Source of the DNA: Gracilibacter sp.
GTDB lineage: Bacteria > Bacillota > Desulfitobacteriia > Desulfitobacteriales > Syntrophobotulaceae
Direction: 5' to 3'
NCBI GenBank assembly: GCA_024637055.1
Contig: JAGXFZ010000078.1
Location: forward strand, 1 to 38,127
DNA: 38,127 bases
Positions 5,179 through 37,994 of the stretch are shown one piece after another (position 1 is the stretch's first letter; the number at the start of each line of letters is the position of its first letter). The notes under the pieces are model-generated. The model ran no database searches. It saw only the letters and a program-made list of their open reading frames with translations, and was not told the origin of the DNA. A program made the translations under genes and the position numbers.

Positions 5179-5207
5179 GTAAAGTTAGGGACGGTTCTTT
5201 ACTTTAC
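5179..5207 (+). repeat. 29-bp GTAAAGT-armed interspersed repeat, with truncated 5' copy at 5161
   Basis: GTAAAGTTAGGGACGGTTCTTTACTTTAC. Confidence 0.95.
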
Positions 5208-5250
5208 ACTTTTACTTTAGTGGAACCTTCATCACAGTTTGTTAACCTAA

Positions 5251-5290
5251 TATAAAACCTCCGTAACTATATTGTTTCGGAGGTTTTATA
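5251..5290. terminator. Bidirectional-looking terminator hairpin
   Basis: TATAAAACCTCCG ... CGGAGGTTTTATA. Confidence 0.8.
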
Positions 5291-5367
5291 ATTAGCGTTA
5301 TATTTTGCTTATATAACTATACAAAAGACAGTTTATACCACATAATGCCATATTCTTTTATATACTA

Positions 5368-5394
5368 AAAGGAATTTACCCCAAAACGTCGAAT
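5368..5394 (+). promoter_or_regulatory. Sigma-H-like promoter for the NRPS gene
   Basis: AAAGGAATT-N11-GTCGAAT matches RnAGGAwWW-N11/12-RnnGAAT. Confidence 0.65.
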
Positions 5395-5437
5395 GTTTTT
5401 TAATATCGATACTTTTGTATTTAATAAGTAGTAGAAG

Positions 5438-8400
5438 ATGATATACGGGGTACAACAATTCATGAATGGAGAAATAATTACTCATCCACTCACCAAGGCG
5501 CAAAGATCGATCTTGATAATTGAAGAATTTCATTCAGGTACAAGTTTTGTAAACGTATGTGCTACTGTCAAGATTAAAGAAAATTTAAACTATGGGCTTT
5601 TAAATAAGGCGATTAACCTTATCATAGAGAGAAATGAAGCATTGAGAGCAAGAGTGATACCCGATGCTGAACCCGTACAATATTTTGCACCCTACCAGCA
5701 GCAAGAATTTGAGCTACTGGATTTTAGTCATGCAAAAAAAGATTATATTTCTTGGGAAAAGACCACGAGCAGGACTCCATTTCATTTTTATGACACGGAT
5801 CTCTTTTATTTCGCTTTAATTAAGTTTAGTGATTCCTCTGGCGGATTTTATATAAAATGCCATCATATTAATCTCGATGCCTGGTCTATAATCTCTTTAT
5901 CTAATCAGGTTTTAGAATATTATTGTAGTTTCAGAGATGGGATTTATCCGGAGGATAGAGATAAAAAATCTTTCATAGAATATATCTCTGATGAAAAAAA
6001 ATATCTTTCATCAGCAAGGTTTTTAAAAGATAAAGCTTTTTGGACAGATATTATTGCTAAAATTGTTGACCCTAATTTATTCGAGAAGAAAAAAACCAAT
6101 AGTACTGCTGCAAGGAGGAAGAGTTACGCCTTTCCATTAGAAGTTTCTTTGATGATAAATCGATTCTGCGCAGAGCATAGGGTTTCACCATTTATCATAT
6201 TTGCTTCAATTATTTCCATTTTTTTCTGGAAAACAAAAGGTAAGGAAGTCATTGTAATTGGAGCACCTTTCTTGAACAGGTCAGGCATAAAAGAGAAGAA
6301 TATGATCGGGATGTTTATAAATAACCTACCTTTCGTCGTGGAAATAGATACATCTTGTTCGTACTTGTCGTTCTTGAAAAATCTTGCTTCGGAATGGATG
6401 AAATTGCTGAGACATGGGAGTTATCCGTATGTCAATATTTTGAAAGAATATCGAGAGGCACATGAAGTAACCGGACGGCTAAATGACATCACCCTCTCTT
6501 TTCAGAATGCTCATTTTGATGTACAGAATATCGATTTTGATACGGAATGGCATTTTAATGATGAAGAAGTCAATCCATTGGGAATCAGCATCAACGATAG
6601 AGAAAACAAAGGAACCTACCATTTGGACTATGACTTTACAATAGACATTGTGGACGAGGAAGAGATAGAAACAATTAATAAAGGCCTATTAAACTTGCTG
6701 GAACAGGCCATGGATAGCCCTGAAAAGAATATCGCCTACCTTAACATTTTGTCAAAGGCAGAGGAACAGATTATTCTCAATTTTAACAATACAGATATAT
6801 CCTTCTCTTTAGATAAAACCATTGTTCATCTTTTTAAAGAACAGGTAATGAGAGTGCCCAATGATATAGCTCTAATATTTAACAATCAGAAGTTAACTTA
6901 TAGAGAATTAGATGTAAGATCCAGCCAACTTGCACAATTCTTAAAAGAAAAAGGCGTAAGAAAAGAAGAAATTATTGGGCTTAAAGTCCAAAGATCATTT
7001 GACTTGGTGATAGGAATTATAGGAATCCTTAAAGCGGGAGCTGCTTATCTTCCTATTGACCCTGCTTATCCTAGCGAGAGGGTAACATATATGCTTAAGG
7101 ATAGTAACTGCAGTATTGTTATTACCAATTGTCCGAACAATGCTATGCCAAATGGGGTTGAGGAGTTTGATCTTTATAGTTTAGATATATGGGAAAAAGA
7201 TATTTCTGATTTTAAATATGATGGATTATCTTCAGATCTGGCTTATGTCATCTACACTTCTGGCTCAACCGGTTTACCTAAAGGCGTGATGATAGAACAT
7301 AAAGCGTTAAACAACTTTGTCCATACCATCAATCAAGCTATTGATTTATCGTCCTACAAGACCATTATTTCCCTGACGACCATATCGTTCGATATTTTTT
7401 TCCTTGAAACTATCCTGCCTATCATTATAGGTATGAAAGTAGTGATAGCCAGTGATGATGAGCACAATGATCCCTCTTTACTACTTAACCTAATAGAAAA
7501 AAATCATATAGAGGTACTGCAAGCTACACCTACTAGGATGAAAACTATCTTAAACGAAAGTGCTAACCCTCCTGCCTTACAAGGGTTATCCCTTCTTTTG
7601 ATAGGGGGGGAAGCTTTTCCAGAAACATTATTATCAACTCTTCGCAGATCAACAAAAGCGAAGATATATAATATGTATGGACCTACCGAGACTACCATCT
7701 GGTCCACAACCAAAAGACTTGATGATGCCGAGAAAATTACTATAGGAAAACCTATCGGAAATACGAAGATCTACATTTTAGATAAATATCTCAAGCCTCT
7801 TCCTATTGGCGTTATTGGTGAGATATTCATATCTGGCGAAGGTCTTGCCCGAGGATATCTGAATAAGCCGGAACTCACAGATCAGAACTTCTTATATCCA
7901 TCTTTTATCCCAGAGACTAGGATTTACAAAACCGGCGACATGGGAAAATTACTTCCCAATGGTGAGCTAGAATACATAGGCAGAAATGATAGTCAGGTAA
8001 AAATTCGTGGTTTCAGAATTGAACTGGGTGAGATAGAGGAGTGTCTCTTGAAACTGGACAGCGTTAAAGAAGTAGCTGTAATTAGCAGCCAAGGCATTTC
8101 TGAAAGAAGCTATCTATGTGCTTATTTGACAGGGACTCGGAAAATTTCGATACCGGATCTTCGTGAACATTTATCTAAATATCTGCCCGATTACATGATA
8201 CCTGCGCGCTTTGCTTGGCTTGCAAGCCTTCCGCAGACCCCTAACGGTAAAGTAAATCGTCAAGCGCTACCTAAAATAGATGAGATAGAAGGTCATCCCG
8301 ATAACAATTATGTAGCTCCAAGAAACAGCGTTGAACAAATACTTGCCCAAGTATGGAGTGAAGTCTTAGAAGTGAGACAAATAGGTATCGATGATGATTT

Positions 8401-9760
8401 CTTTACCTTAGGTGGAGACTCTCTAGCAATTCTAGAAGTACTTTCAGGTGTAGTTCAAAACAACTGGAAACTGAACGCTCAAGACTTCTATGAATATCCA
8501 ACTATCAGAAAGATATCTTCTGTAATACTAAAAGGAACTCATGATAATAATCACGTATCGATTGAGGAATTAAATAATGAATTTGTAATAAAGGATGCAC
8601 TGAAGCAGCATGCGTCATATCAGCCATTTCATACGGGTAATATCTTATTGACAGGAGCCTCAGGATTTTTAGGCATACATCTACTCAAAGAAATCTTAGA
8701 AAATATACCAAGTAAGGTCTACTGCTTGATGCGGGGCCATAATGCTGAACGAAGATTATTTGATTTGTTTAATCATTATTTTCCTAGTCTATCAAAAGAT
8801 AAATTATATGATAGAATTATAGTTATTAATGGGGATATTTCCGCGAAGCAATTTGGTCTACTACACCAAGAGTACTTACAACTGCAAGAAGAAGTTTCAT
8901 CAGTTATACATTCTGCTGCAATGGTTAAGCATTATGGCCCCTATAGTGAGTTCGAGCAAGTAAATGTTAAAGGGACAAAAGAGATAATAAAATTTTGTAA
9001 CGAAGAAAAACACTTGAGTTTCATTTCAACAATTAGTGTTTCCGGTAATTACATGTCTGGTAACGAAAAAAAGAAAGTATTCGATGAAAATGATCTTTAT
9101 ATAGGACAGGACTATATGAACAATGTATATGTCCGAACTAAATTTGAAGCAGAATACCAAATTCTAAAGGCGGTAAAAAAGGGACTAAAAGCGACTATCT
9201 TTAGAGTTGGAGTCTTGACTGGCCGTTACTCTGATGGGTTTTTTCAACATAACATTGAAGAAAACGCTTTTTATCGAAAACTAAAAAGCATTTTTGAAAT
9301 CTCATATCTCCCTGGAAATATTTTTGAGGAGTATATAGAGTTTACTCCCGTAGATTATTGTGCGGACGCCATTGTTCAACTTCTGATGGGTGATTTAGAG
9401 CAACGAAGAGTGTACCACCTATTTAACCACAAAATAATCAAGATACGAGATTTTATTGATGTCCTGAAGCAGTACGATATTAACGTTATAGAAGTGTCCA
9501 CCAATAATTTTTTAGACGTTATTGGTAAACTATCAACAACTTACGAAGGCAAACAAATAATTAGTGGTATTGTTTCGGATGTAGTTGTTCAGGGGGGCTT
9601 ATCCTTTAGCTCGGAAGTTACTGTTGATTCTACAATTAGTCTTATGGATTTGCACAAAATCAACTTTGACTGGCCTGAAATCACACCAGAATATCTAGAG
9701 AAAGTAATAGGCCATATGAGAAAAACAGGATTTCTGGGTAGTATTAGAGAGATATGTTAA
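5438..9760 (+). CDS. Single-module nonribosomal peptide synthetase, C-A-T-R (C-terminal thioester reductase)
   Basis: C: HHINLDAWS; A: LAYVIYTSGSTGLPKGVMIEH, NMYGPTETTIW, YKTGD, GRNDSQVKIRGFRIELGEIE, PNGKVNR; T: DDFFTLGGDSLAI; R: NILLTGASGFLGIHLLKEIL and YVRTK. Confidence 0.95.
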   Translation: MIYGVQQFMNGEIITHPLTKAQRSILIIEEFHSGTSFVNVCATVKIKENLNYGLLNKAINLIIERNEALRARVIPDAEPVQYFAPYQQQEFELLDFSHAKKDYISWEKTTSRTPFHFYDTDLFYFALIKFSDSSGGFYIKCHHINLDAWSIISLSNQVLEYYCSFRDGIYPEDRDKKSFIEYISDEKKYLSSARFLKDKAFWTDIIAKIVDPNLFEKKKTNSTAARRKSYAFPLEVSLMINRFCAEHRVSPFIIFASIISIFFWKTKGKEVIVIGAPFLNRSGIKEKNMIGMFINNLPFVVEIDTSCSYLSFLKNLASEWMKLLRHGSYPYVNILKEYREAHEVTGRLNDITLSFQNAHFDVQNIDFDTEWHFNDEEVNPLGISINDRENKGTYHLDYDFTIDIVDEEEIETINKGLLNLLEQAMDSPEKNIAYLNILSKAEEQIILNFNNTDISFSLDKTIVHLFKEQVMRVPNDIALIFNNQKLTYRELDVRSSQLAQFLKEKGVRKEEIIGLKVQRSFDLVIGIIGILKAGAAYLPIDPAYPSERVTYMLKDSNCSIVITNCPNNAMPNGVEEFDLYSLDIWEKDISDFKYDGLSSDLAYVIYTSGSTGLPKGVMIEHKALNNFVHTINQAIDLSSYKTIISLTTISFDIFFLETILPIIIGMKVVIASDDEHNDPSLLLNLIEKNHIEVLQATPTRMKTILNESANPPALQGLSLLLIGGEAFPETLLSTLRRSTKAKIYNMYGPTETTIWSTTKRLDDAEKITIGKPIGNTKIYILDKYLKPLPIGVIGEIFISGEGLARGYLNKPELTDQNFLYPSFIPETRIYKTGDMGKLLPNGELEYIGRNDSQVKIRGFRIELGEIEECLLKLDSVKEVAVISSQGISERSYLCAYLTGTRKISIPDLREHLSKYLPDYMIPARFAWLASLPQTPNGKVNRQALPKIDEIEGHPDNNYVAPRNSVEQILAQVWSEVLEVRQIGIDDDFFTLGGDSLAILEVLSGVVQNNWKLNAQDFYEYPTIRKISSVILKGTHDNNHVSIEELNNEFVIKDALKQHASYQPFHTGNILLTGASGFLGIHLLKEILENIPSKVYCLMRGHNAERRLFDLFNHYFPSLSKDKLYDRIIVINGDISAKQFGLLHQEYLQLQEEVSSVIHSAAMVKHYGPYSEFEQVNVKGTKEIIKFCNEEKHLSFISTISVSGNYMSGNEKKKVFDENDLYIGQDYMNNVYVRTKFEAEYQILKAVKKGLKATIFRVGVLTGRYSDGFFQHNIEENAFYRKLKSIFEISYLPGNIFEEYIEFTPVDYCADAIVQLLMGDLEQRRVYHLFNHKIIKIRDFIDVLKQYDINVIEVSTNNFLDVIGKLSTTYEGKQIISGIVSDVVVQGGLSFSSEVTVDSTISLMDLHKINFDWPEITPEYLEKVIGHMRKTGFLGSIREIC

Positions 9761-9778
9761 AAAATACCTAATTTAAAA

Positions 9779-9805
9779 ACAGGAATACTTATAAATATGT
9801 CGAAT
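9779..9805 (+). promoter_or_regulatory. Sigma-H-like promoter for the HD-GYP gene
   Basis: ACAGGAATA-N11-GTCGAAT. Confidence 0.65.
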
Positions 9806-9870
9806 TCCTTTGATAATAAAGTTATTTTTTTTATGAAATACTTTTTATTATGGTTTAAGGGTGAAAAATA

Positions 9871-11202
9871 ATGTTATTTAATAATATAAAAAATATAAAA
9901 AAACTCATAGGGAAAACTGTTTTTTATCGGAGTAATCTTTTAAATAAAATTCCAGATGACCAAAAGGAAGAATTCAAAGAGGAAATAACACAGATAAATT
10001 ATGTACGTTCCAGGAATCTAAGCGCTTTATTACTATTTGTTTTAATTGTGCTAATCTTCTTGGATCATGATAGCTTCCAGAAAGGGCACTGGTTGGAAGT
10101 TCCTGGCTACCGTTTATTATTCTACACCCATGTTGTAATGGCACTCGGGATGCTCGTTGTTCTGATCTATTCAATAGTAGCTAGGCTGAATACTGAGACT
10201 GCTCAAACAAAACTCAAGCGGATATTTGTTTTATCATTCTGCTTTATCATCTCAATTTCTAGTGTTTTAGTTTCCATTGCCGACCAGTTTATTCATGGTG
10301 AAATAACTGTCTATATTCTTTCAGTATTTGCCTTAGCCATACTTAACTATCAAAGGCCTGTAACAAATATTACTATTTACTCAGTATCATTCGTGATATT
10401 TATCGTAGGTGTAACCTATGCTCAGACTAATCAGGAAATACTCAGGGGACACTATGTTAATGCTACTGTCCTAGTTATCCTTGCTTTATTTCTTTCCAAT
10501 ATTCTATACTACGGAAAGGTCAAGGAGTTCCTTAGTACCAAGACTATCGAAAGTCAAAAGATGGAACTGGAGGCCAAGAACGAGCAATTATCATCTACGA
10601 ATGCAGAATTAAACGATTCTCTCTTAGCTTTAGATGAATCACAAAACATGATTTTCTCTCTTACCCTGACATTGGAGTCCAAAGATAGTAATACGCATGG
10701 TCACTCCGAAAGGGTCGCTGAATATGTATCAGCTTTAGCAATTCATCTTAAATTGACTGAGACTGATTTTATTAATATTTGGCGGGCAGCTATCCTCCAT
10801 GATATAGGTAAGATAGGTATCCCAGATATTATTCTGAATAAACCTTCCCGCCTGACAGCCGACGAGTGGGAAGTAATGAAGTCTCACCCAGTAAGAGGAG
10901 AATCTATCTGTTCCAAACTTAGATTTGCCCGTGAGATATTACCTATAATACGCCATCATCATGAACATTATAACGGATCAGGTTATCCTGACGGTTTAAA
11001 AGGAGATTCCATACCTTACCTTGCCAGGATTGTAAGTGTTGCGGATACTGTCGATGCGATGACTTCACCGCGTAATTATAAGTTATCGCCAGTCACCATG
11101 GATGAAGCCATAGAAGAACTTAAACGATGTGCAGGTACTCAATTTGACCCAGCCATAGTAGAAGCTTTTGTGGAAGTTCAAAGATTAAAATCTTTCAGAT
11201 AA
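9871..11202 (+). CDS. Membrane-anchored HD-GYP domain protein (putative c-di-GMP phosphodiesterase)
   Basis: N-terminal TM segments; HDIGKIGIP, HHEHYNGSGYPDGLKG, VADTVDAMTS motifs. Confidence 0.93.
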   Translation: MLFNNIKNIKKLIGKTVFYRSNLLNKIPDDQKEEFKEEITQINYVRSRNLSALLLFVLIVLIFLDHDSFQKGHWLEVPGYRLLFYTHVVMALGMLVVLIYSIVARLNTETAQTKLKRIFVLSFCFIISISSVLVSIADQFIHGEITVYILSVFALAILNYQRPVTNITIYSVSFVIFIVGVTYAQTNQEILRGHYVNATVLVILALFLSNILYYGKVKEFLSTKTIESQKMELEAKNEQLSSTNAELNDSLLALDESQNMIFSLTLTLESKDSNTHGHSERVAEYVSALAIHLKLTETDFINIWRAAILHDIGKIGIPDIILNKPSRLTADEWEVMKSHPVRGESICSKLRFAREILPIIRHHHEHYNGSGYPDGLKGDSIPYLARIVSVADTVDAMTSPRNYKLSPVTMDEAIEELKRCAGTQFDPAIVEAFVEVQRLKSFR

Positions 11203-11251
11203 CTATAAAGTAATCTAATACTTTATCGGAAAGAGTATTGGGGAGAATAAC

Positions 11252-12157
11252 ATGACCGAGAACATGGAAATAGAACAAGTACAAGCGTTTCTGGATAAAT
11301 TCGGTACTTTAAATGTAGCGGTTTATTCATATACCATAGATATACTAGGTGTGCAGAGTTTTTCTATCACCGACAAAATCGAAAAGATACTTGGATGCTC
11401 CAAAATTGAGTTTAACACCAATGTTTGGAAAAAAGCGATTTATTCTGAGGATAGGGTTAAAGTTACCAGGTGGAAAAAACAAATACAATCTAAGCTGGAC
11501 TCAGGTATTATCCAGTATCGTATAATTCACCCCGGCGGAAGTGTCCGCTGGATAGAAGAACATCTAACCACTAAGATTGGTTCGGATGAACAACCTAATG
11601 TCTTTCTAGGGATTATCTTCGATATCACAGCGAGGAAAGAACATGAACGTCAATTAGAATACATGGCTTTTTATGATACCCTCACCGGCCTACCTAATAG
11701 AAATTTGCTTATAGGATACTTCCCTAAAGCCATAGCTCGATGCAAAAGAAAGAATACACAACTAGCTATAATGTATCTGGATTTAGATAAATTCAAGAAT
11801 GTTAATGATAGCTTCGGACATGACGTAGGAGATCTGCTATTGAAACAAGTTGCTCAAAGGTTGATGGAATGTGTACGTGATGGGGATATAGTGTCCAGAC
11901 AAGGCGGTGATGAATTTATCATCTTACTAGAAGATATATATAGCAAGGAATTACACGAAATTGCCAAAAGAATTTTAACGAAGATATCTGCACCTTTTAT
12001 AATTGATATGAAAAAAGTAAATATATCTGCCAGCATAGGAATAAGCCTTTACCCCGAACATGGTGAAGACTTGGAAATCCTCACCAGACATGCAGATGAA
12101 GCCATGTTTGAATGCAAGGCCAGCTCGAATTACCAATTCTATGAGAGTAAAGTGTAA
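11252..12157 (+). CDS. PAS-GGDEF diguanylate cyclase
   Basis: PAS region then FYDTLTGLPNRN...RDGDIVSRQGGDEF; intact GGDEF and RxxD I-site. Confidence 0.92.
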   Translation: MTENMEIEQVQAFLDKFGTLNVAVYSYTIDILGVQSFSITDKIEKILGCSKIEFNTNVWKKAIYSEDRVKVTRWKKQIQSKLDSGIIQYRIIHPGGSVRWIEEHLTTKIGSDEQPNVFLGIIFDITARKEHERQLEYMAFYDTLTGLPNRNLLIGYFPKAIARCKRKNTQLAIMYLDLDKFKNVNDSFGHDVGDLLLKQVAQRLMECVRDGDIVSRQGGDEFIILLEDIYSKELHEIAKRILTKISAPFIIDMKKVNISASIGISLYPEHGEDLEILTRHADEAMFECKASSNYQFYESKV

Positions 12158-12163
12158 AGTCGT

Positions 12164-12192
12164 GTAAAGTCGGGGACGGTTCTTTACTTTAC
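12164..12192 (+). repeat. 29-bp GTAAAGT-armed repeat (CG variant), with 5' arm reiteration
   Basis: GTAAAGTCGGGGACGGTTCTTTACTTTAC, preceded by gtaaagt and gtaaagtcgt. Confidence 0.93.
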
Positions 12193-12248
12193 AAAAAAGC
12201 ATACAAAAAACAGGGCGGTTTCCCTGTCTCATCGATAATTACTAATAC

Positions 12249-12270
12249 AACGGCGAATAGCCGTTTTTTT
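12249..12270 (+). terminator. Rho-independent terminator
   Basis: AACGGC-GAATA-GCCGTTTTTTT. Confidence 0.85.
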
Positions 12271-12445
12271 ATTTATCCACATCGTTCACTACCCTTAACC
12301 CGTAAGAACCTTTTTCAATATCTAGATCCTACAGCTTGTTAAACCAATTGGAAATAGTTAAATGAAGGAGAAAAAGTCTCCTCTGTCGAAGCTATGGAAT
12401 AGATGTTAAATAAATATTATGTAAGAAGATTAGGAGGAGATAAAA

Positions 12446-14095
12446 ATCAGACATAAATACTTTACACGTTTAGGCATTATCCTACTCCTTGTCATTTGTC
12501 TTGTTATTCCTCAAGGATCAATTACTACTTACGCCTCCAATCAGAACCCATCCTTGAAGGAGATCGCTGGAATCTTTGACAGAGTAGGTAATGAAAAAAT
12601 GATTCCGCCGGTCATTCTTAAAGCTATTGCTTATACCGAATCAGGATGGCGTCAATGGGATAATAACGGTAACGTAGTATCCTCTTATTGGGGAGGAAAC
12701 CCGAATATAGGGATAATGCAAGTAGGGTCATATAACTCGAACAATACCGCCCTTGTAAATAGACTAAAAAATGATATTAATTTTAATATCGAATACGGAG
12801 CAGACATCCTTCTCTCCAAATGGAATGCCACCCCTCGAATAGGAGACGGAGATCGTAATAAACTTGAAAACTGGTACTTCGCTCTCTGGGCTTACAATGG
12901 TTGGGTTACTTATAACAATCCAAATAATGCCTCAGCTGCAGGAAGAGTTGCTTATCAGGACAAAATAATCAAGCACATTGGGACTGATTACTTCAAAGGA
13001 CTGCTTAATCCTAGCAAAGTAACACCTATCCCTGCCAGGCTTATTCCTTCAGGCACGCTACCTGGGAGGAATACCGTATGGCAAACTCCAGAACCCATCC
13101 ATTACGGCGGGCTTGACCAAGTTGTAGCTTTAACTGATCACGAGATAAGTATAATAGAATCGGTTAACCGTTTAGCAGGATCGGACAGAATCGAAACATC
13201 AATTGAGATTGCTTTAAACGGCTGGCCAAATGGTTCTGAAACCGTTTTATTAGCTAGAGCCGACGATTTTCCCGATGCTTTGGCCGGAGTAGCACTCGCT
13301 GGTAAAAATAAAGCCCCAATCCTCCTCACTTCCCCAAAACACCTAGATCCCAGAGTAGAGGAAACCTTGCTAAAGCTCAAACCTCTTAAAGTCATCCTAC
13401 TCGGAGGACAAAATGCTTTAGAAGATAATGTGGAAGAAAGATTGAGGGAAGTGCTTGACTGGACAGATGATTTCGAAAGAATTGCGGGAAAGGATAGATT
13501 TGAAACAGCAGCCTTGATAGCTTCGAGATTCTCACCTAATAACACCGTTGCCCTAGCTAGTGGCTATAACTTTCCTGACGCCTTAAGCTTAGCTTCTGCA
13601 GCAGCTACCCAGGGCTACCCTCTCTTACTTGTAGGCAAAGATAGCATACCCATGGCTACTGAAGAGTATCTAAAAAACGCAAATCTTCAATCTCTGTATA
13701 TAGCTGGCGGTGAAGGAATTATTTCATCAGAATTACTGGATAGCATTGCTCTGGCTTCTGGTGTGCCGACGGAACAGATAACACGTCTTGCAGGCCAAAA
13801 CCGCTATGACACATCAGCCTTTATATTAAAAGAATTTTACCCTACAGCAACGAAAGTTTTTCTAGCAACTGGGCAGGACTTCCCTGATGCACTATCCGGA
13901 GCCGCCCTAGCTGCCAACAGCAACACCCCCATGCTCCTTATCCACCCTACAGGACCAATAGAAGGCTCAAGTACCGAGAATTATATAAAAACTCTTCCTC
14001 CAGAAGTAGAATTCGAAGTATTCGGTGGAGAGAAAGCCATCCTAGATAGAGGAATACTAAAACTAAAAAACCTATTGGATAATAACAAAATATAA
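12446..14095 (+). CDS. Secreted lytic transglycosylase (SLT-like) with three CWB2 repeats; apparent AUC start
   Basis: ORF track starts at TTG 12554, but the frame extends upstream to a TAG at 12431 and encodes a signal peptide (RHKYFTRLGIILLLVICLVIPQGSITTYAS); AGGAGG at 12432-12437. Paralogue of the 3521 gene. Confidence 0.8.
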   Translation: MRHKYFTRLGIILLLVICLVIPQGSITTYASNQNPSLKEIAGIFDRVGNEKMIPPVILKAIAYTESGWRQWDNNGNVVSSYWGGNPNIGIMQVGSYNSNNTALVNRLKNDINFNIEYGADILLSKWNATPRIGDGDRNKLENWYFALWAYNGWVTYNNPNNASAAGRVAYQDKIIKHIGTDYFKGLLNPSKVTPIPARLIPSGTLPGRNTVWQTPEPIHYGGLDQVVALTDHEISIIESVNRLAGSDRIETSIEIALNGWPNGSETVLLARADDFPDALAGVALAGKNKAPILLTSPKHLDPRVEETLLKLKPLKVILLGGQNALEDNVEERLREVLDWTDDFERIAGKDRFETAALIASRFSPNNTVALASGYNFPDALSLASAAATQGYPLLLVGKDSIPMATEEYLKNANLQSLYIAGGEGIISSELLDSIALASGVPTEQITRLAGQNRYDTSAFILKEFYPTATKVFLATGQDFPDALSGAALAANSNTPMLLIHPTGPIEGSSTENYIKTLPPEVEFEVFGGEKAILDRGILKLKNLLDNNKI

Positions 14096-14106
14096 AGTTA
14101 TTAAGT

Positions 14107-14165
14107 TTAAAGTTAGGGACGGTTCTTTACTTTACAAAATGAAGCAAAAGGACCGTCCCTTGTCT
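14107..14165. repeat. GTAAAGT-armed repeat (14107-14135) followed by a degenerate inverted copy (about 14145-14165)
   Basis: ttaaagttagggacggttctttactttac, then caaaaggaccgtcccttgtct. Confidence 0.85.
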
Positions 14166-14265
14166 GCCTACCTGCCCCCCACAATATTGTAAATCTACCT
14201 AATTTGTAGTAAACTGATAAACGACTAAAACTAGAATTTTTCTATCGAAAGGAAGGCCAAAATAA

Positions 14266-16119: not shown

Positions 16120-16178
16120 CTTCACGGATAATAGCCTGAAAAAAAGATAACCTGACAGAAAAGAAGGAGGACGCTTGC

Positions 16179-17535: not shown

Positions 17536-17562
17536 GGTGACACAGAACCGTCCCCTGTCACC
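17536..17562 (-). repeat. GGTGACA-armed member of the same repeat family
   Basis: GGTGACACAGAACCGTCCCCTGTCACC (core on minus strand). Confidence 0.9.
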
Positions 17563-21371: not shown

Positions 21372-21396
21372 AGACAGGGGGACGGTTCTTCTGTCT
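21372..21396 (+). repeat. AGACAG-armed member of the repeat family
   Basis: AGACAGGGGGACGGTTCTTCTGTCT. Confidence 0.88.
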
Positions 21397-21455: not shown

Positions 21456-21484
21456 GTAAAGTAAAGAACCGTCCCTAACTTTAC
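21456..21484 (-). repeat. 29-bp GTAAAGT-armed repeat, inverted
   Basis: GTAAAGTAAAGAACCGTCCCTAACTTTAC. Confidence 0.95.
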
Positions 21485-26730: not shown

Positions 26731-26753
26731 ATAAAAAGACAGGGGGATAAGAA

Positions 26754-28037: not shown

Positions 28038-28074
28038 ATTAGTTGAATCTAGCCAAACTTTGTGCTTAGTCACT

Positions 28075-28103
28075 GTAAAGTAAAGAACCGTCCCTGACTT
28101 TAC
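28075..28103 (-). repeat. 29-bp GTAAAGT-armed repeat
   Basis: GTAAAGTAAAGAACCGTCCCTGACTTTAC, directly 5' of the SD AGGAGG of the next gene. Confidence 0.95.
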
Positions 28104-28118
28104 TAGGAGGAAAAATCT

Positions 28119-29264
28119 ATGTCATCTCAAAGCCCGCGTGTTTATTTAGCTAAACCTCATATGAGTGGCTACGAACAAGAGTATATTGAAAGTGCATTTG
28201 CAACAAATTGGATAGCCCCGTTAGGTCCTAATGTGGATGAGTTTGAAAAGGAAGTTTCCCAATACACGGGAATCCAAGGAGCTCTAGCCTTATCTTCTGG
28301 TTCGGCAGCAATTCATTTGGGCTTAAAGCTCTTAGGGGTAGGAAGAGGAGATAGGGTTTTTTGTTCTTCCCTAACTTTTATAGCTACTGCCAATCCCATT
28401 ATTTACGAAGGTGGAGAACCCGTTTTTATAGATTCTGAGCCAGAGAGTTGGAATATGTCGCCTCAGGCTCTGGAAAAAGCATTCCATACTGCCCAAAAAG
28501 AAGGCAAACTTCCCAAAGCGGGTATCATCGTAGACCTCTATGGGCAAAGTGCAGATATGCAACCGCTTCTAGAGATATTTGACGCTTATAACGTCCCCGT
28601 TCTCGAGGACGCCGCAGAAGCCTTCGGCGCAACCTATCAGGGGCAACCCTGTGGGAAACTTGCTAAGCTTTCCGTCTTATCATTTAACGGTAATAAAATA
28701 ATCACCACATCCGGCGGAGGAATGCTCTTATCAGATGACCTCCAAGCGATGGAAAAAGCCCGTTTCTGGGCAACCCAAGCAAGAGATAAAGCCAGACACT
28801 ATGAACATAGTGAAATCGGCTACAACTACCGTCTTAGTAACGTCCTTGCCGGTATAGGCAGAGGACAACTAAAAGTCTTGGAAGATAGAGTAAAAGCCAA
28901 AAGACGGATTTTTGACACGTATTATCAAGCCCTTAAGCATATAGACGGAATCACATTTATGCCCGAAGCACCTTTTGGCAGATGTAATCGTTGGTTAACA
29001 ACATTAACCTTAGACCCCCAAATAATCAAAGTAACACCCAACCAAATCATAGATAAATTAGAAGAAGATAACATAGAAGCAAGACCTGTCTGGAAACCCC
29101 TACACAGACAACCGGTATTTAAAAACTGCCAGTACTATACCCACGAAGAAGGAAATAGCATATCAGACTACTTGTTCGAGAACGGCATCTGCCTGCCCTC
29201 CGGCACCAACATGACCCAAGAAGACCAAGATAGAGTCATCCAGATTATCAGAAATACCATATAA
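28119..29264 (+). CDS. DegT/DnrJ/EryC1/StrS aminotransferase (PglE-like)
   Basis: RVYLAKPHMSGYEQEYIESAFATNWIAPLGPNVDEFE; SFNGNKIITTSGGGML. Confidence 0.88.
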   Translation: MSSQSPRVYLAKPHMSGYEQEYIESAFATNWIAPLGPNVDEFEKEVSQYTGIQGALALSSGSAAIHLGLKLLGVGRGDRVFCSSLTFIATANPIIYEGGEPVFIDSEPESWNMSPQALEKAFHTAQKEGKLPKAGIIVDLYGQSADMQPLLEIFDAYNVPVLEDAAEAFGATYQGQPCGKLAKLSVLSFNGNKIITTSGGGMLLSDDLQAMEKARFWATQARDKARHYEHSEIGYNYRLSNVLAGIGRGQLKVLEDRVKAKRRIFDTYYQALKHIDGITFMPEAPFGRCNRWLTTLTLDPQIIKVTPNQIIDKLEEDNIEARPVWKPLHRQPVFKNCQYYTHEEGNSISDYLFENGICLPSGTNMTQEDQDRVIQIIRNTI

Positions 29265-29274
29265 AGTTAGGGAC

Positions 29275-29338
29275 GTAAAGTTAGGGACGGTTCTTTACTT
29301 TACATTTTCGTAAAGTAAAGAACCGTCCCTAACTTTAC
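29275..29338. repeat. Inverted pair of 29-bp repeats forming a perfect 29-bp stem with 6-nt loop
   Basis: 29275-29303 and 29310-29338 are exact reverse complements, between convergent genes. Confidence 0.95.
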
Positions 29339-30672
29339 TAAAACTTCCGCCTACGGCTATTGAAAACGGTGCTTTCACCAAACTCTTCTTCTTTGGCATT
29401 AATAACAAGGGCGACAAGCATTCCCATACTTAGCCAAAGCATGGGATCCTCAAAGAAGCGGGCTTCCATTTGGGAACTGATAAAGATAGCTATAATCCAA
29501 CTGAAATAACCAATCCCTAAAACATAGCTTGCTTTAATACTCTGGCTCACGCGATAAAGAGTATGGATAAGGGCTATCCCAATTAGCGAAAATGATATAA
29601 TCCCGATCCATCCCAGCTCAGCAGCTATCGTAACCGCCGAGGTATGAGAGAGGCTGACACTGGTATCAGTTGGATTTGCCAGATAATCAGCTAAATATTT
29701 CTTTTGGAAACCACCAAGCCCCACTCCCCAAGTGGGGCTATTTTCAAATATGTCTATTCCCGCCTTAATCAAATTCATACGCACTGAACCTGGTGCTGTT
29801 AACTCTTGCTTGATATTCAGAAAACGTGTTATAAGACCGGAATTCATGATTACCGCACCTAAGCCCAATACACCCATAATCCCTGCAGGTATTAAGACCC
29901 TGCGACTACGAAGCATGACCAGAAGAAAGAGGATAACCACACCCAAAGTAAGAATTCCTCCACGTGACATTGTCAGCACCAGCTCTCCTACTAAGACAAA
30001 TAAGCCAACCGTATACAGACTCAGTTTTGACTTGCTGTTGGAGAAATATTGAAGGATTAAATTCGAAGCAATAGCAAGAACCAGGAAACGGGCAAAAATA
30101 TTTGGGTCAACGAAGGTAGCGTTAATCCGCCAAAAAGCCCCTTGGACATGAACTTCTTGCCAGAGGAGGTTCCCTGTGTAAGCTTGATAAAAGGTCAAAG
30201 GCGCAAGCGCAAGCCCAACTGCATTTACAAGTTTAAAAGGAATCAATGGGTTGAAGCGGTGGGAGATAATTAGAATAACACTAAAATATAGAGCTATAAA
30301 AACACTTAGCCTCATTGATTCTACCAGTGTCTTGGTCTGATCAATAGAATGGAAATAACTCCCCGCAGCCACCAGTAAATAGAGAATAAGTGCCCAAGTT
30401 AATGGTTGAGTCGAAATCTTACGCAATTTTCGACGCGTATCAGAACAAGTAATAAGCTTAACCAAAGCAACAATTATAATGGCAAAAGTAGTTAACCTTG
30501 AGAGGCTAATTATACCCAGAGTTTGCGCTAAAAAAGGTATATCCGGATACCAAGTACTCGATATTTCTAGAGCTACAGAAAGAGCGAGCAAAAGAACAAG
30601 ACCTTCAGGCCTGAATATACCTAAACCAATAATAACAATAATAGTCAGGGTAAGCAGCACCCATTCTAACAA
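29338..30672 (-). CDS. O-antigen ligase/polymerase-family membrane protein
   Basis: Multiple TMs; VLTMSRGGILTL; GVGLGGFQKKY...SHTSAVTIAAELGWIG. Confidence 0.8.
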   Translation of the reverse strand: MLEWVLLTLTIIVIIGLGIFRPEGLVLLLALSVALEISSTWYPDIPFLAQTLGIISLSRLTTFAIIIVALVKLITCSDTRRKLRKISTQPLTWALILYLLVAAGSYFHSIDQTKTLVESMRLSVFIALYFSVILIISHRFNPLIPFKLVNAVGLALAPLTFYQAYTGNLLWQEVHVQGAFWRINATFVDPNIFARFLVLAIASNLILQYFSNSKSKLSLYTVGLFVLVGELVLTMSRGGILTLGVVILFLLVMLRSRRVLIPAGIMGVLGLGAVIMNSGLITRFLNIKQELTAPGSVRMNLIKAGIDIFENSPTWGVGLGGFQKKYLADYLANPTDTSVSLSHTSAVTIAAELGWIGIISFSLIGIALIHTLYRVSQSIKASYVLGIGYFSWIIAIFISSQMEARFFEDPMLWLSMGMLVALVINAKEEEFGESTVFNSRRRKF

Positions 30673-30685
30673 ACCATCGACCTCC

Positions 30686-31333
30686 TTAAAAAACTACTCT
30701 TTTCTTAGGTATTACTTTTGCCGGTACACCAATAACCGTCATGCCATCTGAAACATCCTTCACCACAACCGCACCGGCACCAACAATACTCCAAGTTCCA
30801 ACTTTCTTCCCAGGAATCACAATAGCACCGATACCAACATGACTTCCTTCCCCAACACTGACCTTACCGCATAAACCAACGTTAGGAGATACATGAACGT
30901 AGTCTCCTAATTTATTATCATGCTCCACCACGGCAGCCGTATTGACAATACAATGATTGCCAACTGCAGCATCAGCATTAACAACAGCATTAGGCATTAT
31001 CACCGTTCCATAACCAATCTTAGCCGACCGACTTATTACAGCCCTTGGATGGATTAAAGTCTCATACTGCTCAAGAGGTATGGCAAGTCGCTCAAATAGT
31101 TTTTTGCGATCAGCATTGTTACCGATAGCTAGGCAGAACGTATACTCTTCCACATTTAAACTAGATAGGAAAGCAGTATTCGCATATATGATTCCGTTGA
31201 CTTCATTCGTTTTCTCAATAGCATCATCCACGATGGCATATAATGTTAAGTCCTCATTTTCAGCTACAATATCTTGTATAACCTTACTATGGCCACTAGC
31301 ACCTATTAAAATCAATTTAGTCATTATCGGCAC
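30686..31333 (-). CDS. PglD/NeuD-like sugar O/N-acetyltransferase
   Basis: [19 protein letters not shown]-terminal hexapeptide repeats. Confidence 0.88.
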
Positions 31334-31937
31334 CTTCTTTTCTTATTGTACCTTTGAATTTTTCCGTTGTAACATGTCCAACCTGATTTATACCTTCTGA
31401 TTTAAAGACCTTGAACGCAGTTAAAAAGAGTATTTTAATATCCAGCCAGAAAGATTGATTATCGACATACCAAACATCTAGCTTGAATTTATCTTCCCAG
31501 CTTAGTGCATTACGCCCATTAACCTGAGCCCAACCGGTAATTCCAGGCTTCGCTTCATGCCTCCGGGCCTGTTCAGAAGTATATAAAGGTAGATACTCCA
31601 TCAATAACGGACGGGGACCCACCAAACTTAAATCTCCCTTTATTACATTAAATAACTGAGGAAGTTCGTCCAAGCTCAACTTACGGATTATTCTACCTGT
31701 CTTTGTTAAGCGTACATCATCAGGCAAAAGTTCACCATTTTCATCACGTTCATCCGTCATAGTCCTGAACTTGTAAACATAAAAAGGTTTCCCATGTAGT
31801 CCCGGACGCTGCTGGGTAAAGATAACAGGAGAACCTAATTTTCTACTAATAACCAAAGATGTAATAAGTAAGATAGGAGAAGCTATTATTAACCCAATAA
31901 TGGAAACGGTCAAATCAAACAATCTTTTTAACATCAT
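31317..31937 (-). CDS. Initiating sugar-phosphate transferase (PglC-like)
   Basis: [54 protein letters not shown]. Confidence 0.92.
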
Positions 31938-33175
31938 TTACTCCTGCTTACATCGCTTAACATATGTAATTCAAGTTTTATAGCTAGTTTTGCCCATGAA
32001 TAATTATTTTCAACATATTTTCTAAGAGCATACCCTGTTTGAAGCTTATATTGCTCGTCATGAATCTTGTTTAATATATCTGTTGCCAACTCATCCGGAC
32101 TCTCAGAGAGATTGATTCCTTCCACATCCTTAAAACTACCAATCACTTCTTTACTAGAATACATCATAACCGGCAGACCTGAAGCCATATAGTCATATAA
32201 TTTATTCATACTAAAGCCCCATTTATAAAGAGGGGATTTTTTGATAGATATAAAAGATAGATCAGCTAGACTCAACAAATAAGGTATTTTTTCCTTAGAT
32301 ATAGGATCCAGAAAGGTCACATTGCTTAAATTGTTTGTCCGCGCTAACCTTATCAGATCATTCTTCTTTAAACCATTGCCAACTAGAATAAATTGTACAT
32401 CGGAATTATCTTTAAGTAAATTTGCAGTCTCAATCAAAGGTTCGAGATGATTGGCTATCCCATGGGAGCCGGTATAAACGACTGTATATTTATAGGATTG
32501 CATCACTCTTAAAATATCTTCATCCTGCCTGATTTCCTGAAAACTTTCAATGTTTACACCATTAGGCAGATAGACCACTTTATCGTTATCGACACCTCTA
32601 GATTCAACATAGTCAGCCGCCTTATCAAACAAAACAATAATCTTGGCAGCTTTCTGATATAAAAACTTCTCAAAAACATACAAAGCCTGAGCAATCGGAT
32701 TATGCTTACTTAGTTTCCCGAAGTCCACAAACGTCTGAGGCCAAAGATCGCGTTCCTCAAAATAAAAGACACTCTTAGACTTCTTAGATATTAAATAACC
32801 AATATACGCTGCCAACGGATGCACACTTGACCCGATAATAATATCCGGTTCTTCAGTCTTTAATTCCTTGATCCCAGCCCTATAGGCGTTATAAGTATAA
32901 TCCAAAATATTTTTAATGCGCTTTATAGTTCCCTGATAGGCCGCAGTCTTCACCCATACAAAGTTAATCCCATTAATACTCTCTTTAACAGAAGAAACAC
33001 CGCTATCATAACGATGAGTTTCTTCCTTAACAAAATGATTATATGAAGAAGCAAAGATCGTAACCTCATGCCCTTTTTTTACAAGCTCATATGCCAAATC
33101 ATAATGCCGCGTACCACCCACATAAACAGGCGTCGTAGCATAATGATTAAAAATCCAGATGTTCAATATAATCAA
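31934..33175 (-). CDS. GT4-type glycosyltransferase
   Basis: [42 protein letters not shown] at 33166 may be the better start. Confidence 0.88.
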
Positions 33176-33216
33176 CCTCTCTTGATTATATTACCATAAA
33201 ATAGTACCACACAAAA

Positions 33217-33265
33217 GTAAAGTCGGGTAAAGTCGGGTAAAGTCGGGGACGGTTCTTTACTTTAC
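33217..33265 (+). repeat. 29-bp repeat (33237-33265) preceded by two tandem 10-bp copies of its 5' arm
   Basis: gtaaagtcgg x3 then ggacggttctttactttac. Confidence 0.95.
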
Positions 33266-33335
33266 ACTTTTCCCCAAACATTACTCAACCAAAGCTTCCC
33301 ATTTTCCAATAAAAGCAAAATATTTCTAATATTAA

Positions 33336-33362
33336 ACAGGTAAAAAACTAAATGCGTCGAAT
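33336..33362 (+). promoter_or_regulatory. Sigma-H-like promoter for the REC-GGDEF gene
   Basis: ACAGGTAAA-N11-GTCGAAT (one mismatch in the -35). Confidence 0.55.
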
Positions 33363-33418
33363 TATCAAAAAATAATGATGACTAACCTTCATGATTTTAT
33401 AAAGAAGGGCGAACACGA

Positions 33419-34324
33419 ATGGATAATACCATAATGATCGTTGATGATCAGACTCTTAATCTACGTTTATTAGAAGAAGTATTGAAGGATTACACAGTTA
33501 TTCTGGCGAAGGATGGAGAACATGCTCTCCAAATCCTAGAAGGAGATAATTTACCAGACCTTATATTACTTGACGTTCTTATGCCTGGGTTGAGCGGATT
33601 TGAAGTGATTAAGAAAATTAAAGACAATGATAAGACAAGAGACATCCCGGTTATCTTCATAACAGGTCTTAAGTCGGTCCAAGATGAAGAAGAAGGCTTA
33701 AATCTTGGCGCAATGGATTATATCATGAAGCCTTTTAACCCAGCAATCGTTCGGGCCCGTGTTAGAAACACCTTGCGATTTAGGAATCAACAGAAGATGC
33801 TGGAAACTATGGCACATATAGATGGCTTAACTGAAATTTCCAATCGAAGAAATTTTGATGTGATTCTGAATAGAGAATTTAAGAGTGCAGTACGAAATAA
33901 AAGATGGCTCTCTCTCATCATGATAGATGTTGATCAGTTTAAACACTATAATGACAGCTATGGTCATGCCAAAGGTGACGTAGCTCTGATAAAAATAGCC
34001 AAAACAATTAAATCATGCCTTAAGCGATCGGATGATTATGTTGCAAGATATGGGGGAGAAGAATTTGCCGTTATTCTTCCCGATACTGATGAGATTGGGG
34101 GAACGGAAGTCGCAGAAAGTATCCGTCAGGCAATTAATACTATCAAAATGGAACATAAAAAATCAAAAGGGGACCCTTGGCTAACAATAAGTTTGGGCGG
34201 GTATAGTTGCATACCGGAACATTCACAAAATGAGCAACGTATTATTGAAAAGGCTGATATTTGCCTCTACAGAGCAAAGAACAACGGTAGAAATTGCGTT
34301 GAGTGGGAGCAAAGTGTAAAGTAA
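33419..34324 (+). CDS. Response regulator-GGDEF diguanylate cyclase (PleD/WspR-like architecture)
   Basis: REC: IMIVDDQ...LILLDVLMPG...KPF; RSDDYVARYGGEEF with I-site RxxD. Confidence 0.93.
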   Translation: MDNTIMIVDDQTLNLRLLEEVLKDYTVILAKDGEHALQILEGDNLPDLILLDVLMPGLSGFEVIKKIKDNDKTRDIPVIFITGLKSVQDEEEGLNLGAMDYIMKPFNPAIVRARVRNTLRFRNQQKMLETMAHIDGLTEISNRRNFDVILNREFKSAVRNKRWLSLIMIDVDQFKHYNDSYGHAKGDVALIKIAKTIKSCLKRSDDYVARYGGEEFAVILPDTDEIGGTEVAESIRQAINTIKMEHKKSKGDPWLTISLGGYSCIPEHSQNEQRIIEKADICLYRAKNNGRNCVEWEQSVK

Positions 34325-34344
34325 AGAACCGTCCCTAACTTTAC
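34316..34344 (-). repeat. 29-bp GTAAAGT-armed repeat overlapping the 3' end of the REC-GGDEF CDS
   Basis: GTAAAGTAAAGAACCGTCCCTAACTTTAC. Confidence 0.95.
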
Positions 34345-34362
34345 CTAACTTTAAAGATTGAG

Positions 34363-36524
34363 GTGGAGAGCAATATGTTACAAGCTAGGTTTCTTCTTTT
34401 GTCTTTCATCATTCTTCTGGCTCTGATCTTTCCAGCAAACATCTTCGCAGTAACAGATAATGAAACGGAGAGGCTTTCCGGCAGTAATCGGATGGCCACC
34501 ATGTATGAGATAGCACTACACCAGTATCCAGATATGGTCGATAATGTTGTACTAGCTTCTGGCTATGGGTTCGCAGATGCCTTGGCAGGCGTTCCTTTTG
34601 CCCATCAAAAAAATGCACCTATCTTGCTTGTAGATAAAATTCCAAAAACCAACAGTCATGCAATTCAATATATCACCGACCATCTTCGCACCGATGGCAA
34701 GGTATACATACTAGGGGGCTCAGGTGTTATCAGCCTGGAATGTGAAACAATGCTGAAATCTTTAGGCGTTACTCCTGAGAATATTACCAGAATCGCCGGG
34801 CCAATCGCTACGAGACCGCTGTAGAAATAGCAAAAAACATGGTGCATGACGGTAGTGAATATTACCTCGTCTCCGGTGTTAACTTTCCCGATGCCTTAAG
34901 TGCTTCAGTCCTTGCAGCCACTACTGATTATTACACCGCCGAAGAAGCGGATTATCTAACAAGCGAAGGTACGTCCGTTAAACCAAGCAGGGGCGGAATA
35001 CCTATCTTACTTTTACCTTCGAATGGAACCATCCCTGACATAATCATCACCTATCTTAATAAAGCACCCCTCGACCCAACTCAGAAGCAAACTCTCCAGG
35101 TAATAGGTGGTATAGGTGCAATTCCAGATAAAACACTGCAAGAATTAAATACTAAAGTAACGCAATTAGCATATCAAGGTGTAAAACGTATCAGCGGTAA
35201 TGATCGTTACGAAACCAATAAAAACCTTGTCCTCCAACAGGACAGATTCGACAAATCCTGGCAGGATAATGGACAAGGCTTGCCTGTGCCTCAGGTTGTT
35301 CTCGCTTATGGACAGGATTATCCTGACGCCTTAACGGGAGCAGTTTTGGCAGCCAACCTCAAAGCACCGCTGGTATTGATTAATAAAAATATGCCATCAG
35401 CCACCTCAGACATACTCCTTAACTTCTACCAGAGAAACCTTTCTTCCGAGCCAACCGCCACCAACATCATTGTCTTGGGTGGTACAGGTGTAGTATCCCA
35501 AGAGACTGTCGTTAAAGCAGATTACTTATTTAACGATGGAAAGATAACGGGAGGAACGCAAGTAAGTACACTAGCCACTGACTTCAATTTCCCTTTCGCA
35601 GCAGTCCAAGCATCTAACGCTATCATTTATGTATCAGATACCAATAACCATTTAATCAAGATGATAAAGCCGGATGGAACTGTGACCACATATGCTGGTG
35701 AAATAAATGAACTAGATGCCTACGGTATGCCTATCGGAGGCCATGTCGATAGCCAAAGAGCAACAGCCCAGTTCAATTTCCCTAAAGGATTAGCGTTAGA
35801 TAATAATGGGAATCTCTATATAGCCGATTCCGGTAATGGTGATATCAGAGTGATTGACAATCAAGGAATGGTATCTACCTTAGTCCAAGGTTTAAACCAA
35901 CCATCTGGTTTAGTTTTCAGCGACAACGGAAATCTCTATGTCACCGAAACTATGAAACACCGGGTGCTTGAAGTAAAAATGGACGGTACTTTTGAAGTCA
36001 TCGCCGGAGGTAATTATGAAGAAAGAGATGGTTACCTCGAAGGGGCTTTGGCTGATGGCCAAGGAGAAGAAGCTAAGTTTAACGAACCAACCGGACTCGC
36101 CCTAGGAGAGGATGGAAGCATCTATGTCTCAGACAGCGGCAACCAAAGAATCAGAATAATTGATACCGATAACAGAGCTACAACCTTAGCAGGCAGTGGG
36201 ACAGACTTAATCCCCTACACCACCTATATTGAGGGCGATTTCCAAGATGGCAGCCTTCAGACGGCAGCCTTTAACTTTCCTACGGGTATTACCATCGACT
36301 CAGATGGAGCAATCTATGTGGCGGATAGTTATAACCACGCCATCAGATTAATCTCCGATGGGCAAGTCACCACCCTAACCGGAACAGGAACATACGGCAA
36401 AGATAACGGATACCTGGACCAAGCCCAATTTGATGGACCAAGCCATTTGGAATTCCTAGACAATGGTAACCTGCTTGTAGTTGATCGACTGAATAACCAG
36501 CTAAGGGTTATAGAATTTGAGTAG
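34363..36524 (+). pseudogene. Frameshifted secreted CWB2 (about 3 repeats) + NHL beta-propeller protein
   Basis: ORFs 34363..34824 and 34839..36524 join through a -1 shift near 34803: ITRIAGP then NRYETAVEIAKNMVHD in the other frame; NHL units (GNLYIADSGNGDIRVID etc.) follow. Confidence 0.8.
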
Positions 36525-36539
36525 TGGTATAAAGTTAGC

Positions 36540-36602
36540 GTAAAGTTAGGGACGGTTCTTTACTTTACATTTTGTAAAGTAAAGAACCGTCCCTAACTTT
36601 AC
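36540..36602. repeat. Second inverted pair of 29-bp repeats (perfect 29-bp stem, 5-nt loop)
   Basis: 36540-36568 and 36574-36602 exact reverse complements. Confidence 0.95.
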
Positions 36603-36604
36603 TC

Positions 36605-36633
36605 TTGTTATAATTTTAAAACAGCGCTATAAT
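36605..36633 (+). promoter_or_regulatory. Sigma-A-like promoter for the transporter gene
   Basis: TTGTTA-N17-TATAAT. Confidence 0.65.
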
Positions 36634-36667
36634 AGATGTATACCCTGCGGGGGTATACATCTATTAT
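36629..36667. promoter_or_regulatory. 17-bp-arm palindrome, CsoR-family-like operator
   Basis: ATAATAGATGTATACCC-TGCGG-GGGTATACATCTATTAT overlapping the -10. Confidence 0.6.
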
Positions 36668-36682
36668 TAAAGGATGAACGAT

Positions 36683-37663
36683 ATGGAAATGAAAAGTGTA
36701 CTTAAAAAAATGATATTATGGCCGTCCAAAAACATTGCTCTAGCTATACCAGCAGTATTGTTGTTAGGATTTATAGTCGGACTTATCTTAGATACTTCTT
36801 CATTGAAGGTACTCATCTTACCCATCGCTATGTTAATGATCTATCCCACCATGATAGGTTTCAAACCCCAAGAAGTCCTGAACTTCTCTCATGGTCGCTT
36901 GATGATTACTATCATAATATTGAACTTTATCGCAATTCCTATAATCGCCTACCTCTTAGGAACAGGATTCCTACTAAGCGATCCCCAACTATTCGCTGGA
37001 CTGGCCATCACAGCTCTACTACCCACTAGTAACATGACCATTGCCTTCACCATGTTAGCCAAAGGTAACGTACCCGCTGCTATCAAATCGACAACCACAG
37101 GCCTACTTCTAGGATCTTTACTTGCTCCTTGGTACCTGCTAGTTATGGTAGGGAAATACGTACCCATCGATATCTTCCTAACCCTAAAAACAATCTCCCT
37201 CATCATCATCGTTCCCCTAATCCTAGGGATGATCACCTATTCCTATATCATGAAGAAATACTCCTTGGAGTATTTCAAAAAGACTATCAAACCATATCTT
37301 CCTGCTGCCAGCTCCTGGGGAATGATCTTCATCATCTTCATCAGTATCAGCATGAATGCTCCCAGAATCATCTCTAGCCTGAACTTATTTTTAATCGCCC
37401 TGCTAGTACAAATCGTATTCTACGGTATCAATTATAGCTTAGCTATCTTTTTCAGCAGAAAAATGTTCAACCCTCAAGACGGCTTAACCCTAGTCTTTTC
37501 CACCGCCCTTAGGAATTTATCGATTGCTATAGGGCTAGCAGCAACAGCCTTCGGACCTAATGCCGCACTTATGGTATCTCTGGCATTCTTAATCCAAGGT
37601 CAAGCGGCGGCTTTGTTTATCAAGCTTAATAACCGCTATGGGTTGCTTGGCAAATCTGGCTAG
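36683..37663 (+). CDS. Bile acid:sodium symporter / ACR3-like transporter
   Basis: About 10 TM; LLPTSNMTIAFTMLAKGN; AAAGGA SD is 8 nt before ATG 36683 (listed start 36674 abuts the SD). Confidence 0.75.
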   Translation: MEMKSVLKKMILWPSKNIALAIPAVLLLGFIVGLILDTSSLKVLILPIAMLMIYPTMIGFKPQEVLNFSHGRLMITIIILNFIAIPIIAYLLGTGFLLSDPQLFAGLAITALLPTSNMTIAFTMLAKGNVPAAIKSTTTGLLLGSLLAPWYLLVMVGKYVPIDIFLTLKTISLIIIVPLILGMITYSYIMKKYSLEYFKKTIKPYLPAASSWGMIFIIFISISMNAPRIISSLNLFLIALLVQIVFYGINYSLAIFFSRKMFNPQDGLTLVFSTALRNLSIAIGLAATAFGPNAALMVSLAFLIQGQAAALFIKLNNRYGLLGKSG

Positions 37664-37733
37664 ACGAAGAAATCACATATCCATCACTTAACTTAATAAG
37701 AAAGTATATCTAAGCTTAATAAGTAAGTAATCT

Positions 37734-37769
37734 AAAAGACCTCACATCTAAATGGTGTGAGGTCTTTTT
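37734..37769 (+). terminator. Rho-independent terminator
   Basis: AAAAGACCTCACA ... TGTGAGGTCTTTTT. Confidence 0.88.
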
Positions 37770-37935
37770 GTTGTTACAAGTCTTATTTTCTACTTTTATT
37801 AATGAAAAATATCCTGAACATGAAGAAGTAACGTATCTCTACAAGAATAATTTCTACTACCATTCAGGAATCATCTCCTCTGTCTCTCAATCCATGCTCT
37901 TAGATTAGAAACAGGTAATATTAATTTATCAAAAC

Positions 37936-37963
37936 AAAACCTGACCACAAGAGGTCAGGTTTT
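37936..37963. terminator. Bidirectional terminator hairpin
   Basis: AAAACCTGACC-ACAAGA-GGTCAGGTTTT. Confidence 0.8.
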
Positions 37964-37968
37964 AACAT

Positions 37969-37994
37969 GGTGACAGAGGACGTCCTCTGTCACC
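37969..37994. repeat. Perfect 26-bp palindrome, derived GGTGACA-armed repeat
   Basis: GGTGACAGAGGACGTCCTCTGTCACC. Confidence 0.85.

Follow-up and report, generated by a model that had tools for sequence, protein, structure and literature searches.

Hairpin elements in the window and their distribution

The window, meaning the whole 38,127-nucleotide stretch of Gracilibacter sp. DNA that was analysed, carries short inverted repeats in its intergenic regions. All are built around the same core, GGGACGGTTCT. Exact matches to this core number 13 in the window, whereas a first-order Markov null predicts 0.01 (maximum 1 in 300). The source genome (2.58 Mb assembly) contains 65, against 1 for the reversed control, and in 56 of these 65 the arms form a run of 5 or more contiguous Watson-Crick pairs. 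A dispersed hairpin family with a shared core and arms complementary within each copy, as proposed in a preliminary description of this DNA, is thus confirmed. The elements are as follows.

5167..5183, plus strand: partial copy (left arm and start of the core), tandem to the next element
5179..5207, plus strand: hairpin element, arms GTAAAGT/ACTTTAC
12163..12193, plus strand: hairpin element, GTAAAGT arms; left arm tandem upstream from about 12148; overlaps a stop codon
14108..14134, plus strand: hairpin element, arms TAAAGT/ACTTTA
about 14142..14170, minus strand: degenerate copy, core GGGACGGTCCT; a GGAAGCA-armed copy occupies the orthologous site of a same-genus genome (G001)
17536..17562, minus strand: hairpin element, arms GGTGACA/TGTCACC; the orthologous G001 site has an AGACAG-armed hairpin
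21372..21396, plus strand: hairpin element, arms AGACAG/CTGTCT; other arms in the G001 ortholog
21456..21484, minus strand: hairpin element, GTAAAGT arms; kept in G001
28075..28103, minus strand: hairpin element, GTAAAGT arms
29275..29303, plus strand: hairpin element, GTAAAGT arms; first member of an inverted pair
29310..29338, minus strand: hairpin element, GTAAAGT arms; second member of this pair
33237..33265, plus strand: hairpin element, GTAAAGT arms; two additional left arms upstream, from 33217
34316..34344, minus strand: hairpin element, GTAAAGT arms; overlaps the stop codon of a gene ending at 34324
36540..36568, plus strand: hairpin element, GTAAAGT arms; first member of an inverted pair, missing at the orthologous G001 site
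36574..36602, minus strand: hairpin element, GTAAAGT arms; second member of this pair
37969..37994, no strand assigned: derived copy with GGTGACA arms, perfect palindrome GGTGACAGAGGACGTCCTCTGTCACC, core mismatches lost

The 13 exact cores comprise 11 with GTAAAGT/ACTTTAC arms and one each with GGTGACA/TGTCACC and AGACAG/CTGTCT. The last two lie exactly where they had been described, and the reading of 37969-37994 as a derived GGTGACA-armed form also held. Eleven GTAAAGT copies of 29 bp had been counted; the number of this arm type stands, except that the copy at 14108-14134 lacks the outer G. The 11 intergenic loci become 10 if 21372 and 21456 are taken as one, and the degenerate copy near 14142 and the partial copy at 5167 are additions to the earlier list. 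An Rfam search of the window gave no matching family.

Between 5170 and 36602, 8 of 15 elements sit near a stop codon, at most 11 nt ahead of it or 15 nt beyond it, and some overlap it. The left arm is repeated in tandem upstream of 27 of 56 elements in the source genome and 43 of 151 elsewhere (in the window, for example, at 5167-5207, 12148-12193 and 33217-33265). Tandem repeats of the right arm are fewer, at 8 and 13, respectively; the null is about 4% and 2.5%. The palindrome at 37969-37994 has a paralog with the same flank (C35:11349; L053, about 7350) that keeps the core. Another copy (C23:7533; L052, about 3534) resembles a chimera of GGTGACAG-armed and AGACAAG-armed elements joined at GGGAC.

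Comparison with G001 showed that GTAAAGT copies are kept at five syntenic places, while the pair at 36540-36602 is missing. The element ends cannot be placed at this empty site because G001 is too diverged there. At the sites of 17536 and 21372, G001 (contig C80), which represents another species of the genus, has hairpins with different arms, which may reflect replacement, independent insertion or turnover of the stem. Neither a transposition event nor an exact insertion junction was observed. The window also encodes, at 5438-9760, a 1440-aa NRPS-like protein with condensation, AMP-binding, carrier and reductase parts. This gene lies between G001-syntenic blocks and is unmatched in the compared G001 stretch.

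RAYT genes flanked by the elements

As the preliminary description had stated, there is no transposase in the window; in particular, no RAYT is found there. The source genome, however, has four Y1_Tnp (Y1/RAYT) genes, and one of them (on contig C5) is bordered by two inverted copies of the element with the same arms. The upstream flank carries GTTAGGGACGGTTCTTTACTTTAC shortly before the start codon, and the downstream flank carries a GTAAAGT copy in inverted orientation, with an arm that overlaps the stop codon. These arms are those of the window's GTAAAGT type. The encoded protein (P0001) is a RAYT by the features tested: it scores 87.2 bits against NCBIfam REP_Tyr_transpos (NF047646, cut-off 80) and 66 bits against PF01797 (Y1_Tnp), and it contains the motifs NHIHLL and YIHNNP. 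Its sole PDB sequence match is 4ER8, the E. coli TnpAREP bound to a REP hairpin, which is also the top fold match of its structure model (pLDDT 89.5). In this model the C-terminal domain is helical. Matches to HTH_23, HTH_3 and HTH_31 occur in few of 39 family members (best E about 1e-4) and are weak in P0001 itself (0.047), so that a C-terminal helix-turn-helix of the TIRYT type is weakly supported in these RAYTs.

The RAYT genes on C124 and C106 are also flanked in inverted orientation, by repeats with the related core GGGACGGGG(A/C/T)T, and the Y1_Tnp gene on C118 has GGGGACAGGTACA on its upstream side only. At its stop codon the C124 gene is followed by three tandem copies of a second repeat family with the core GGGACGGGGTTA (L051). 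A RAYT with GGTGACA or AGACAG arms was not found in the source assembly, which is 85% complete. The RAYT of G001 is 77% identical to the C5 protein and has GTAAAGT arms as well.

A scan of genomes gave 80 further RAYT loci, spread over Clostridia, Negativicutes and Bacilli. The core was present within 400 bp of the gene in 65 of the 80 loci, on both sides in 49, and the downstream copy frequently adjoins the RAYT stop codon. The link to Y1 (RAYT) transposases, put forward earlier by analogy, is therefore borne out both in the source genome and in other Firmicutes.

Copy number points in the same direction. In a set of 300 genomes from the phylum, a strong RAYT match is present in 45 of the 54 with at least 10 copies, against 42 of the 246 others (odds ratio 24, p 2e-20; the lists for this 2x2 test were compiled by hand, and small count errors are possible). 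Nine of the 54 high-copy genomes are without a strong match. The highest copy numbers reach about 150 per genome. One genome (G120) has four RAYTs, each with arms of its own (TGCGACA, GTGTCA, GAAACC and TTGTCAA), and its dispersed copies share these arm types. By a simple rule, 17, 2, 6 and 28 of 80 listed copies, respectively, were assigned to them, although the split between GTGTCA and TTGTCAA is rough because the rule overlaps for these two.

Constant core and covarying arms

The 31-nt elements of the RAYT loci align without gaps. Over about 80 loci in Firmicutes the core is nearly constant, whereas the arms vary from locus to locus (42 distinct 7-nt arms in 47 loci) and yet stay complementary. 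The mean arm stem is 5.7 bp, compared with 2.8 bp when arms are paired across loci and a maximum of 3.34 in 300 permutations. The arm covariation check suggested in the preliminary description came out positive, with 201 double-sided compensatory cells observed and 84 in shuffles. The covariation score was 0.468, against 0.185 in shuffled and 0.135–0.162 in slid controls. Each of the middle arm columns is Watson-Crick paired in 46–49 of 63 cases (18–22 expected), and in 68 of 75 stems the two sides keep a symmetric register. Neither a single arm type nor arm mismatches at chance level, named beforehand as findings that would speak against the family, was observed, since the arms are diverse genome-wide and their complementarity is far above chance. 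The arms showed no general preference for G·T over A·C; such a preference is seen only beside the core, where it is partly due to composition.

Core and arms are both related to the transposase. The core class follows the RAYT tree, with 9 changes against at least 17 when shuffled. Arm sequence is correlated with RAYT sequence (Mantel r 0.33, reached in 0 of 2000 permutations), and arm identity climbs with RAYT identity from about 0.3 below 40% to 0.9 above 80%. We also sought a foot tetranucleotide guide in 40 loci, but no position outside the foot exceeded 0.26 bits. With no conserved tetranucleotide there, the elements lack the GTAG tag that marks canonical REPs.

The core itself may form the tip of the hairpin by folding to GGGA-CGG-TTCT, in which two pairs are G·T wobbles. 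The evidence is no more than suggestive: this fold has 4 pairs, and in an unconstrained analysis the wobble-position variants of the window's core class are almost all T to C. RNAalifold predicted the arm pairs only, and the energy advantage of the top strand is small (-4.9 vs -4.5 kcal/mol). An apparent rule that every core variant keeps its pairing proved to be an artefact of a search pattern that forces pairing, and only the unconstrained analysis was retained, as suggestive.

Nature and relationships of the elements

The elements are 20–40 bp long, intergenic, present in many copies, partly arranged in inverted pairs and associated with a cognate RAYT, as are REP-like sequences in the broad sense. 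We consider them likely to be REP-like, non-autonomous hairpins of a RAYT (Y1 HUH) of the TIRYT/subclass 2.1/Bertels group 1 type. The core-bearing strand of each copy would fold to a hairpin in which the variable arms form the lower stem and GGGACGGTTCT the tip, probably with a short upper stem GGGA/TTCT containing the two wobbles and closed by CGG. The RAYT would recognise the single strand in this folded form, with the tip as a shared signature and the stem as the address of the individual enzyme. By cleaving and rejoining the hairpin the RAYT could spread the copies, much as E. coli TnpAREP acts on GTAG REPs in vitro. Recognition and mobilisation in trans are inferred here from what is known of the enzyme family (PMC8266576). 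The GGTGACA and AGACAG copies of the window could then belong to other RAYTs that either lie outside the incomplete assembly or have been lost.

Perfect stems could also arise without any recognition, if template switching during replication mends the mismatches of quasipalindromes so that the stems drift as perfect pairs. The palindrome at 37969-37994, which lost the core mismatches that its paralog keeps, would fit this process, and the polar left-arm duplications and the chimera-like copy on C23 are signs of template switching. However, such correction should erase the core mismatches too, and yet the core persists in almost every copy and throughout the Firmicutes sampled. Template switching would also leave the placement at RAYT ends, the link between arm and RAYT sequence and the copy-number correlation unexplained, and we regard it as an unlikely account of the family. 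Somewhat less probable still is an origin as transcription terminators or mRNA 3' end hairpins with a function in the RNA. The position of 8 of the 15 window copies around stop codons agrees with this, as does a terminator-like hairpin that G001 has in place of the pair at one site. On the other hand, elements follow same-strand genes in both orientations, a consistent T-run is absent, the core is fixed and Rfam has no match; a constant core and a link to RAYTs are both unnecessary for a terminator. A secondary use of the elements as terminators or in RNA is possible. Short, dispersed, intergenic inverted repeats might finally be double-stranded palindromic sites for a regulator or nucleoid protein, but a dimer site would conserve its arms, and here the arms vary fully while only the asymmetric centre is constant, which makes this reading very improbable.

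Di Nocera 2013 (PMC3733652) described TIRYT genes whose inverted repeats at both gene ends share GGGGWSAS. Some of these TIR families were dispersed as single copies, dimers and clusters, repeat families were named in only some species, and most TIRs were treated as inverted repeats rather than as hairpins with a shared tip. The present loci resemble TIRtrons/TIRYT in having a Y1 HUH RAYT-like gene bounded on either side by inverted repeats. GGGGWSAS is found exactly in the GGGGACAG core class (L108, L115, L134, L139) and with one position off (G for A) in the GGGGACGG class, into which the window's family falls. Because of this resemblance of the flanks, the family may be placed with the TIRYT/subclass 2.1 type. 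The repeats here depart from those descriptions in being hairpins whose arms covary, and in reaching about 150 copies in a genome. Automatic and manual searches by Quentin 2018 (PMC6006769) gave no REP-like sequences near subclass 2.1 genes. What is new is that the present repeats form hairpins in high copy number, in which the tip is constant and the arms covary and match the RAYT. A text search of the open-access literature with the core on either strand returned, by title, only unrelated subjects and none linking the word to a repeat; most subscription literature lay outside its scope.

REP/BIME elements had been named as the closest analogy. This stands as far as the association with RAYTs is concerned; the elements are not canonical GTAG REPs, their constant part is the tip and not the foot, and the transposases appear to group with TIRYT/subclass 2.1. 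With the GTAG REPs, BIMEs and REPINs of group 2 and 3 RAYTs (E. coli, Pseudomonas, Stenotrophomonas) they share short intergenic hairpins, inverted pairs, copies flanking a cognate RAYT and several RAYT-REP pairs per genome, and the GTAG-REP enzyme reads features of stem and loop (PMC8266576), as we presume for the present RAYTs. They differ in a foot without GTAG or any other conserved tetranucleotide and in the 11-nt tip as the constant part. CGTC-tagged REPs are dispersed palindromes too, and the complement of our core includes CGTC, but in those REPs it is unpaired and terminal, with a CCA tail and no transposase (PMC3733652), whereas here it lies inside the tip and a RAYT is associated. 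At the ends of IS200/IS605 elements (IS608, ISDra2) a Y1 HUH enzyme recognises hairpins in single-stranded DNA, as we presume for the present repeats; in contrast to these insertion sequences, the gene is low-copy, the repeats are dispersed away from it, and a tetranucleotide guide was not found.

More tentatively, the same design might hold for this second-largest RAYT class as a whole: a near-universal GGGAC-type tip that marks the substrate, and a freely replaceable stem that works as an address private to one RAYT. Mutually exclusive RAYT-REP pairs could then coexist in a genome, and a stem could be exchanged if both arms change together. A large transposase class reported without REP-like partners gains a candidate substrate in many Firmicutes, and a DNA word recurrent in their genomes becomes annotatable. 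The loci also offer natural pairs of enzyme and hairpin by the dozen, with stem and tip varying independently of each other, so that reading of a folded strand by HUH enzymes and changes in its specificity are directly testable.

The copies are unevenly distributed. In the source genome, 39 of the 65 lie on contigs C3, C63 and C5, which together make up 94 kb (3.7% of the assembly). The copy-rich contigs of G001 are C80 and C44, one of which carries its RAYT; 16 of 52 copies are on the 147 kb RAYT-bearing contig and 13 on a contig matching part of C63.
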